Positions 11,208 through 13,943 of a stretch of DNA of 43,003 bases are shown piece by piece (the first letter of the stretch is position 1; each line of letters opens with the position of its first letter). This DNA is from an uncultured Halomicronema sp. (GTDB lineage Bacteria; Cyanobacteriota; Cyanobacteriia; Phormidesmidales; Phormidesmidaceae). Both the position numbers and the translations under genes were made by a program. Below the pieces are notes generated by a model. It ran no database searches. It was not told the DNA's origin and worked only from the letters and a program-made list of their open reading frames with translations. The stretch lies in assembly GCA_937899725.1 (NCBI GenBank), contig CALCCA010000056.1, positions 1 through 43,003 of the forward strand, given 5' to 3'.

Positions 11208-11639
11208 CTATAAGTCCAGCAGCGTTGAAGCACTGTCGTAATAGCGGGCCCAATACTGTGGATCGGGTCTTTCTTGCCATTCGCTGCGGGTAACTTGCGC
11301 TTCTAGTACTGGAATGGCAATCCCCTGATTTTCGCCCACGATGGTAATGACCACCTCAGAGGTGAGCACGTCGGCATCGAAGCTGCGTTGAATGCCCGCG
11401 CGGGCTACTGCCTCACTCTGGCGCAAAAAGGTGTCGTAGCTTTCATTTGGGTTGCGAATGACAAACAGAGTCACTCGGGCCGTGTAGGCGTGAGCCACCT
11501 GAGGTGTATTGAGCACAGTGGCTAGAGCGATCGCGCTGCCGCTGGCGGCAAACATCGCGAGACTGAGCCCACTCGACCACAATCCTCGTCCAGCTTGCTT
11601 AAACGGAGCTGAACAGGAGGTTTTCAGAAGAGACATCAT
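11208..11639 (-). CDS. Exported protein with Sec signal peptide, unknown function
   Basis: 143 residues from the ATG at 11639, chosen because GGAGAAG lies 6 nt upstream; the open frame extends 15 codons further to 11684 without a comparable site. The N-terminus has a basic region (KQAGR), a hydrophobic core (LSLAMFAASGSAIALATVL) and a probable cleavage site at AHA before YTARV. The mature part is about 90 residues, rich in Val and Ser, with VTLFVIRNPNESYDTFLRQSE and IVGENQGIAIPVLEAQVTR as notable strands. No known domain is recognised. It is likely periplasmic or thylakoid-lumenal. It is divergent from the caspase-like gene. Confidence 0.75.
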   Translation of the reverse strand: MMSLLKTSCSAPFKQAGRGLWSSGLSLAMFAASGSAIALATVLNTPQVAHAYTARVTLFVIRNPNESYDTFLRQSEAVARAGIQRSFDADVLTSEVVITIVGENQGIAIPVLEAQVTRSEWQERPDPQYWARYYDSASTLLDL

Positions 11640-11940
11640 GGCAGGCTTCTCCAGCGGTGACGAGTGTGTCGGCAGCAGCCACACAGTTGACAGCGCCTTA
11701 AACTTAGCGGTTGTCTAATCGGTCGTCAATGCTCACGCTGATCTGAAGGTGATCTGGCAAATTAAAGTTATTTGGCAAAGCGGTTCAAAAGCCATTAGCT
11801 CGCTAGAATGAGCATCGTTTTAGAGGGTTTGTGTTATCGTCTGTTGTCATCCTCTGGCTTCAGCACAGCCCGAGTAATGATGGCTGCCCGCCAAGGCGAG
11901 GGTGAGCGGCTGAAGACGCGTATCGGGGCAAGGCAACTTA

Positions 11941-13943
11941 TGGCTAATCATTGGGCTCTCCTCATCGGGATTAATCAATATAAGGCGCTGCAGCCTTTGA
12001 TGTATGCACAGCCTGATGCCGTTGCTCTGCGCAACTTCTTTGTTGATGAGCTGGGGGTGCCGGTCAACCAGTGCACGCTGTTGACGGATGTCTCCGCGGC
12101 GATCGACCCCCACGCTTATGCCCCCTTGCGCCAAGAAATCGAGGGCCGGTTGCGAACCCTTTGTCGCGAACAGGTGCAGCCTGGTGATTTACTCTGGGTC
12201 TTTTTTAGCGGCTGTGGCTTAACCGAGGCCGGTCAGGACTATTGGATGACCCTCGACTCTGAGCCAACGCAGCTGGCCGAGACCGCGATCGCCCTGTCGA
12301 GCATTTTTGACATTTTAAGTACGGCTAAGACTGATCAGATTTTGCTGGTCATGGATATGAACCGGAGCCAGGGGGCCGTGGGTCATCGCCAGATTGGTGC
12401 TCAAAGCCTCACCCTCGCCAAAGACTACGGCATCACTACCTATTTATCCTGCCAGCCCGACCAGTTTTCCCACGAGACCATGTATCTGCGCCATGGTCTG
12501 TTTACCAAGGCTTTGCTGGAAGGCTTACGGTATCACGGCTGCATCACGGCCTCTCAGCTGGCGGCTTATCTCGGCGATCGCGTCCCGGAATTGTGTGAAC
12601 ACCACTGCCGCCCTGTTCAAAATCCGGTCACCGCCATCTCGCCGGCTCAAAAATTCATGATGATCGTGCCCGCGGAGGGAATTGCCCATCTATCGGTGAC
12701 TGAAGGGGCGACGGCCAACCTGCATGCGGGGATCGCGGCTGCCGCCTCGCCTCCAGAGGCGGTGACTGTTCCCACCTCACCGGAGCCAGGCCTCACGCCG
12801 ACCTTACCCCCGTTGCCAGAGACGGGAGGAAATCAAGGTTTTACCCCGCTGACTCCGCCTGCCTCTGTCGAGCATCCCGGCAAAGTCGAAGCAGCACCAG
12901 AGCCCCCGCGAGGCGGAGCGCTCGTAACGACCCCTGACCCAGCGGAACTGGATGAAGCTGGCGATACTACCTTATTTGGGAGTCTCTTAAAGTGGGTTGT
13001 GGCCGCCGCGGCTTTGGCCTTTTTGGCGGGTGTTTTCTTACGCTATCAATCGGTTTTATTCAATGGTGGGGAGCGGGCAGAGCGCGCTGAGGAAGCGACC
13101 GATCTTGAGACGGGTGGTGATACCGAAGCTTCTGGTGACACCGTTCCGACTGAAGGTGAGCCGGGTGAGCCGCTGTTTCCCCCGGATATTGACCCGGTGG
13201 AAGCGGGCAAAAATGCGCTGCAGCGGGCAGAAGAGGCGATCACCGCCAATCGCTATGGCGAGGCGCGCGCCTGGCTGACTCAAGTGCCACCAGAGCTGCA
13301 GGATAATAACTACCAATCACTACTCCAGCAGGCTAATAGTGAAGTTGCCGAAGCGGCGGCGCGCAATCAAGATATTTTGAACAACGCGCGGCAAATCATT
13401 CAACCGGCGTCGGCGTCTATGTTTAACGACGCAATTGAGCAGGCCCGCCAGGTGCCTCCCGAAGATCCCTTTTACGACCAGGCCCAAGCCGACATCGCTC
13501 GCTGGGGTCAGGTGATTTTAGATTTAGCCGAAGGCCGCGCCGCCAGCGGTGATATCAACGGGGCAATCGCCGCCGCTAGGCTGGTGCCCACCGATCAACC
13601 GCAGGTCGCCGAGGCGGCGGCGCAACGCATTGCAACCTGGGAACGTCAAATCGGCAATCAAGACCTGATTCGGCAGGCCCAAAACTCGCTACAGCCGGGC
13701 CAGGCCAGCTCGTTTAACAATGCGATTCGCTCACTGCAGACCATCATGCCTGATCAACCAGGCTACGCCGCCGCTCAAGACCAGATCAATCAGTGGAGCG
13801 GCGATATTCTCGCTATCTCTCGGGCTCGGGCGGCTCAGGGCGATTTGGGTGGGGCGATCGCCGCTGCCGAACTCGTTCCCGAGGGGACGGCAGCTTTTGA
13901 GCAAGCGCGTCAAGAGATCGAGCGCTGGCAAGGACAACAATAG
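11941..13943 (+). CDS. Caspase-like (C14/orthocaspase) protein lacking both catalytic residues, membrane-anchored
   Basis: 667 residues from the ATG at 11941, where the fold begins MANHWALLIGINQY; the frame is open from 11808. Residues 1-245 form a caspase p20-like domain: ALLIGINQYKALQPLMYAQPD, then VFFSGCGL at 88-94, where the usual SGHG histidine is Cys92, then LLVMDMNRSQG at 135-145, where the usual DxC cysteine is Asn141. Both dyad residues are thus changed, predicting no protease activity. A Pro/Thr-rich linker spans 246-345 and one membrane segment lies near 350-370. An acidic spacer leads to a helical region with two tandem copies of a roughly 93-residue repeat (about 478-570 and 575-664). 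Orthocaspases are common in cyanobacteria; this may act as a scaffold or regulator (inference). Confidence 0.85.

Follow-up and report, generated by a model that had tools for sequence, protein, structure and literature searches.

Active orthocaspases carry a catalytic His-Cys dyad, and pseudo-orthocaspases without an active dyad have been reported from most cyanobacteria examined. The YN clade of pseudo-orthocaspases was described by Klemencic 2019 (PMC6426788). Its members carry Tyr in place of the catalytic His and Asn in place of the catalytic Cys, together with two specificity-pocket Asp residues and a conserved Trp shortly before the His/Tyr position, the Trp being a named hallmark of the YN variants (PMC6426788). 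The clade was reported from filamentous strains (PMC6426788, PMC8283722), Nostoc sp. PCC 7120 having the YN protein WP_010997820.1 (PMC8283722), and in the text on the YN branch its describers assigned no function (PMC6426788). The dyad Cys-Asn (CN) was listed among 16 rarer pseudo-variants (Bhattacharjee 2021, PMC8283722), and Cys at the His position and Asn at the Cys position are both already published kinds of pseudo-dyad (PMC6426788, PMC8283722). The YS forms have a Tat-like N-terminus and SyOC has the dyad YG (PMC6426788); deletion of SyOC in Synechocystis led to higher H2O2 tolerance (PMC7889975). EACC1-associated caspases belong to conflict systems of two genes (eLife 52696, PMC7159879), and HetF, a divisome component in Anabaena, has the order CHAT-TM-TPR (PMC8406250).

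We analysed a stretch of 43,003 nucleotides (the window) from an uncultured Halomicronema sp. (contig CALCCA010000056.1), which encodes a caspase-like protein with Cys92 and Asn141 at the dyad positions. Judged by its p20, this protein is a member of the published YN clade, and its gene stands divergent to that of a small partner protein. Divergent pairing with an exported-type partner was not met in the literature searched: searches of the open-licence PubMed Central literature turned up neither this gene pair, nor a functional study of YN proteins, nor experimental work with a member of the YN clade, and in the available text of PMC6426788 and PMC8283722 the terms operon, neighbor, adjacent and divergent led to no mention of gene context.

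Results

Gene and domain architecture

The open frame spans 11808-13943 (+), and the start codon was chosen from the alignment of relatives, which begins at the ATG at 11940, one base away from the start given in the sequence-only reading. The p20 matched the Pfam Caspase domain PF00656 at 58.5 bits, well above the cut-off of 21.4. In a Pfam scan of the whole protein up to E 0.1 the only other matches were two weak repeat models; the CHAT model was absent among these matches, and no Pfam domain C-terminal to the p20 exceeded its cut-off. The features of the gene pair are collected in Table 1.

Table 1. Features of the divergent gene pair in the window.
Feature	Coordinates	Strand	Basis
Pseudo-orthocaspase, 667 aa: p20, Pro-rich linker, one membrane segment, C-terminal repeats	11940..13943	+	relatives' alignment for the start
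p20 caspase-like domain, residues 1-245	11940..12674	+	PF00656 (58.5 bits) and fold matches
Cys92 codon TGT, site of the catalytic His; most clade members have Tyr	12213..12215	+	
Asn141 codon AAC at the catalytic Cys position	12360..12362	+	
Predicted membrane segment, residues 349-367	12984..13040	+	mean Kyte-Doolittle 2.25
C-terminal helical repeat domain, residues 475-667, two similar units	13362..13940	+	alignment, conservation, class search
Divergent partner gene, 158 aa: hydrophobic N-terminus, then ~90-aa conserved domain	11208..11684	-	

Numbered from the ATG, FFSGCG places Cys at 92 and VMDMNR places Asn at 141. A profile of 12 relatives paired their SGYG or SGCG with the SGHG of solved metacaspases (E ~2e-7); this alignment stops near residue 100, with position 141 outside its reach, and Asn141 was aligned with the Cys of 7 paralogs that have both His and Cys (HC; LDACR and similar motifs). 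On the Pfam match and these alignments the p20 belongs to the Peptidase C14/orthocaspase family and has Cys92 and Asn141 instead of the dyad of active orthocaspases, which confirms the earlier identification of both residues. The best matches of an AlphaFold2 model were metacaspases and MALT1 (6w8s_D, metacaspase 4: Z 11.0, rmsd 4.7, 192 aligned). The suggested structural comparison is in keeping with a caspase-like fold, on a model that is shallow, built from four sequences and of low confidence (mean pLDDT 51.8). A relocated dyad was rejected on the sequence, where no displaced His/Cys pair could be made out in the active-site loops; a model of such low confidence gives no geometric argument against one.

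The p20 is followed by a proline-rich, fast-evolving linker. The membrane anchor and long repeats read earlier were borne out as a hydrophobic stretch at ~349-367 and two repeat units within 475-666. Topology was not settled by the charges flanking the membrane segment (more on the N-side in 44 proteins, more on the C-side in 37 and equal in 34; n=115). The N-terminus of the family reads MANHW with no RR, so the twin-arginine-like extension of the YS type is absent.

HetF, a component of the Anabaena divisome (PMC8406250), likewise has a caspase-like domain followed by a membrane segment and then TPR-like repeats, and by analogy the protein might serve as a membrane anchor for cell-wall or division work, in keeping with the filamentous strains from which the YN clade was reported (PMC6426788, PMC8283722). 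We consider this unlikely, since the protein matched PF00656 and no CHAT model, and the commonest neighbour families, judged by eye, give no pointer to cell wall or division.

Composition of the altered site

Positions 92 and 141 were tabulated across homologs, as the sequence-only reading had suggested. The first tabulation held 126 distinct p20 domains and the query (127 rows, with identical p20 domains merged). The dyads were YN in 97 rows, YS in 9, HC in 7, CN in 7 (a count in which the window protein stands twice), YK in 2, HN in 2, and HS, LN and CA in 1 each. For the second tabulation eight rows were added and the duplicate was dropped, which gave 127 non-HC p20 rows. Here position 92 was Tyr in 116, Cys in 7, His in 3 and Leu in 1, and position 141 was Asn in 109, Ser in 12, Lys in 2 and Ala, His or Arg in 1 each, with one gap. 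All rows with Cys at 92 carry Asn or Ala at 141. His at 92 together with Asn or Ser at 141 was seen in the clade members L122, L109 and L163. A further cysteine, Cys45 (codon 12072-12074), is present in 119/127 clade rows, whereas all 7 HC rows carry Val or Ile there; Cys171 is common to clade and HC rows.

Trp86, D26, S90 and D139 were invariant in the 12/12 aligned relatives, D139 being located via the D-x-Cys motif and D26 via the alignment only. The window protein therefore has the Asn (AAC at codon 141), the Trp (Trp86) and the two pocket Asp residues (D26 and D139) of the YN clade, and lacks its Tyr, with Cys at this position in 6/6 genomes of the genus. Because the genus is nested inside the Tyr rows, we take the absence of Tyr for a change that arose later, inside the clade. 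The gene was intact in all six genomes, and Cys92 with an intact frame in 6/6 excludes a sequencing error. Decay or a sequencing artefact was ruled out by the shared frame and Cys92 together with low dN/dS where it could be estimated.

Origin of Cys92

The tree was built without columns 92 and 141 and with L199 left out as a near copy of L198. It was made by a quick method with SH-aLRT support only, and has several long branches and many open forks. The genus formed one fully supported branch within the Tyr relatives, and the 7 HC rows formed one side of a 100% branch. The sisters L014, L015 and L016 have TAT at codon 92, and the genus has TGT in four of five distinct sequences and TGC in one, so Tyr to Cys takes one base (TAT to TGT). 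In a single-sequence search of genome contigs three loci were found, from two Halomicronema records and one "Leptolyngbya" bin, and the p20 of one Halomicronema bin was 100% identical to that of the window.

Since the site was already Tyr/Asn before the genus and a single base suffices, Cys92 did not directly replace His. We read it as a late, genus-specific swap of Tyr at a site already dead with Tyr and Asn. The sequence-only reading had seen a change from His to Cys and a loss of both dyad members in this protein; neither is supported, as Asn141 is the clade norm and position 92 was previously Tyr. A rare dyad such as CN can thus be a late change on a dead site rather than new chemistry.

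Residual or altered catalysis, with Cys92 as a nucleophile or redox switch, would draw on the position of Cys92 in the old active-site loop and on the three separate changes that Cys at 92 requires on the tree. Cys92 occurs in just 7/127 clade rows, position 141 is then Asn or Ala, and the change from Tyr costs one base; on these counts we regard such catalysis as very improbable.

Selection

Between L011 and L013, the one genus pair with unsaturated dS (dS of the other pairs being high or inestimable), dN was 0.024 and dS 0.663 for the p20 (245 codons), and dN was 0.021 and dS 0.909 for the C-terminal domain (192 codons). The linker showed dN 0.55 with dS not estimable in within-genus pairs. 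The low dN relative to dS in both folded parts indicates strong purifying selection, and by this measure the p20 and the C-terminal domain are both under strong constraint. Together with the clade-wide conservation of the pseudo-site, these values support the earlier view that the protein is selected for a retained non-proteolytic role and is not decaying.

Divergent gene pair

The gene upstream of the window pseudo-orthocaspase is divergent and apparently of another family; EACC1-associated caspases are marked by a 5' EACC1 gene in the same direction. Its product has a hydrophobic N-terminus that ends AHA-Y and looks, by eye, like a signal peptide; in 50/66 partner rows an A-x-A-like motif is followed by Y, Q, E or S. 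The partner is apparently exported.

We counted the pair in 100 fetched loci, chosen by p20 similarity to the window protein. Five of these loci were HC and none of them had the partner (0/5), so the count applies to the 95 clade loci. By profile search the partner was present in 68/95 clade loci, divergent in all 68, and missing from the fetched locus in 27/95. Over all 100 loci the partner family was upstream and divergent in 65 by clustering and in 68 by profile search, versus 30/100 for the next commonest neighbour family. By clustering it was the next ORF in 61/66 rows and the second ORF in 5/66, and the gap between the open frames of the pair was <500 bp in 61/68. The pair spans 10/17 family codes. 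Loci fetched later (L174, L187, L188, L191, L195-L200, L204 and L205) stand outside this count; among them L188 and L191 have a clade p20 and a divergent partner. A protein of ~200 aa was also seen near the clade gene in 30/100 loci (e.g. L097, L124, L152 and L174:4602-5210), a putative sulfite-oxidase-type molybdenum protein.

Co-occurrence was scored in 290 genomes of the class, with a clade p20 defined by E at most 1e-45. Counted without regard to shared ancestry, a strong partner match (E better than 1e-40) was found in 97/127 genomes with a clade p20 versus 11/163 without; with weaker matches included, and shared ancestry likewise ignored, the figures were 102/127 and 55/163. Among the 11 exceptions, G147 and G196 have a clade p20 below the cut-off and a divergent partner, G052 encodes the repeat protein with no p20, G093, G191 and G239 have unrelated genes among the fetched neighbours of the partner, and G021, G022, G235, G250 and G285 were each matched by the repeat profile. 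As relatives of the partner occur beside unrelated genes in genomes outside the clade-p20 set, the partner family extends beyond this pairing.

No Pfam match was found for the window partner or for the 34 aligned members of 66 (E 0.01), and its profile matched no PDB sequence at E up to 1. The model of its 90-residue domain (three sequences, pLDDT 76.5) showed a strand, a helix, two strands and two helices, and this three-sequence model had no fold match in the PDB at E <= 0.001. NCBIfam gave no match for the window partner. A defence link was considered and rejected: PADLOC matched the window protein with a generic caspase model only and the partner with none.

Loci without the p20 or without the partner

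In one genome (G052, locus L174) the gene divergent to the partner encodes a protein of 419 aa in which a membrane segment of mean hydropathy 2.59 is combined with the repeats, and no p20 was found in the locus or in the genome at E 1e-45. This single genome, which keeps the membrane segment and repeats without the p20, suggests an association of the partner with these two parts of the protein. In G209 (L194), too, repeats were seen and no p20 was detected, here with no partner in the locus. Conversely, several diverged members of the clade (L187, L195-L200, L204 and L205) combine p20 and repeats and lack a partner in their loci. A separate protein of ~570-700 aa with a hydrophobic N-terminal segment and several copies of the same repeat was seen at L201:2315-4414, L202:2669-4687, L207:2130-4076 and L208:1261-2970, and in many other genomes ORFs of similar size gave weaker matches to the repeat profile.

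Other caspase homologs

At least five homologs in the window genome show both His and Cys (L001, L002, L003, L005 and L072), and the nearest HC paralogs are 34-40% identical. A small co-directional ORF family is present in four of five HC loci; in L168, L169, L172 and L173 this ORF lies directly upstream of the HC paralog and is EACC1-like by position only. The genome also encodes a second pseudo-orthocaspase, L007 (G000:C57:13417-13869), with SGLG, IDAG (Leu-Gly) and an N-terminal RR, whose sequence fits the YS type.

The sequence-only reading had proposed a decoy or scaffold for active orthocaspases, in which the dead p20 would bind active p20s or their substrates and hold them at the membrane. 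The five or more HC homologs in the genome and the retained pocket residues agree with such a decoy or regulator, and pseudocaspases are described as acting so elsewhere (PMC6426788). The loci point away from it: no second p20 gene was found in the 101 clade or paralog loci scanned or elsewhere in the window, and the one caspase-like frame met ~4 kb from a clade gene (L191:9814-11979, in G196; SGLG and LDTS) is itself a pseudo-form. The gene pair points to the exported partner, and G052 keeps membrane segment, repeats and partner without a p20. The same source also regards prokaryotic pseudo-variants as most likely not regulators of active forms (PMC6426788). A decoy for active orthocaspases is conceivable and appears improbable to us.

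Discussion

Read from the sequence, the architecture of the locus comprises an altered dyad, pocket residues, a linker, a hydrophobic segment, repeats and a divergent gene. We see about an even chance that this is a YN-clade caspase-fold protein which lost protease chemistry before the genus arose and which acts with its exported partner as a membrane scaffold or sensor. The clade as a whole would have lost the chemistry before the genus existed, and Cys92 would be a genus-specific swap of Tyr at a site free of catalytic constraint. The p20 would lie in the cytoplasm and bind, but not cleave, a client that is perhaps a basic peptide. The protein would span the membrane once, its repeats would contact the exported partner across the membrane, and the two would work together.

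More broadly, and tentatively at somewhat short of even chances, we propose that YN pseudo-orthocaspases serve as the membrane subunit in a cyanobacterial transmembrane system of two genes that has not been described before. The exported partner would talk to the repeats, the dead caspase domain would relay to or hold a cytoplasmic client, and the p20 would be dispensable. The conserved exported-type partner offers a concrete handle on YN function, with two genes at one locus.

Comparison with known systems

RAPTOR has a dead caspase-like scaffold domain, a caspase fold that does not cut, beside helical repeats. The window protein likewise has a non-cutting caspase fold next to helical repeats, and an mTORC1 entry (7uxc_C) stood at rank 41 among the fold matches of the p20 model; RAPTOR is eukaryotic, and the likeness is an analogy of working only. 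HetF shares the order of caspase-like domain, one membrane segment and repeats, but has CHAT where the window protein has PF00656 and no CHAT match.

The NCBIfam model for EACC1-associated caspases (NF047832) matched the window p20 with 59.1 bits, under its cut-off of 140. In contrast to those caspases, the window protein has a dead dyad, its own membrane segment and a divergent partner that is apparently of another family; EACC1-associated caspases may nevertheless be the ancestors of the clade, with the partner changed. SyOC (YG) and the YS type share the caspase fold without an active dyad, and the YS type differs in its Tat-like N-terminus, absent from the window protein. The YN-clade pseudo-orthocaspases are alike in the p20 without an active dyad, the Asn at the Cys site, the Trp before the His site, the acidic pocket that is kept and the lack of an above-threshold Pfam domain C-terminal to the p20; the window protein differs from them in having Cys, not Tyr, at the His site.
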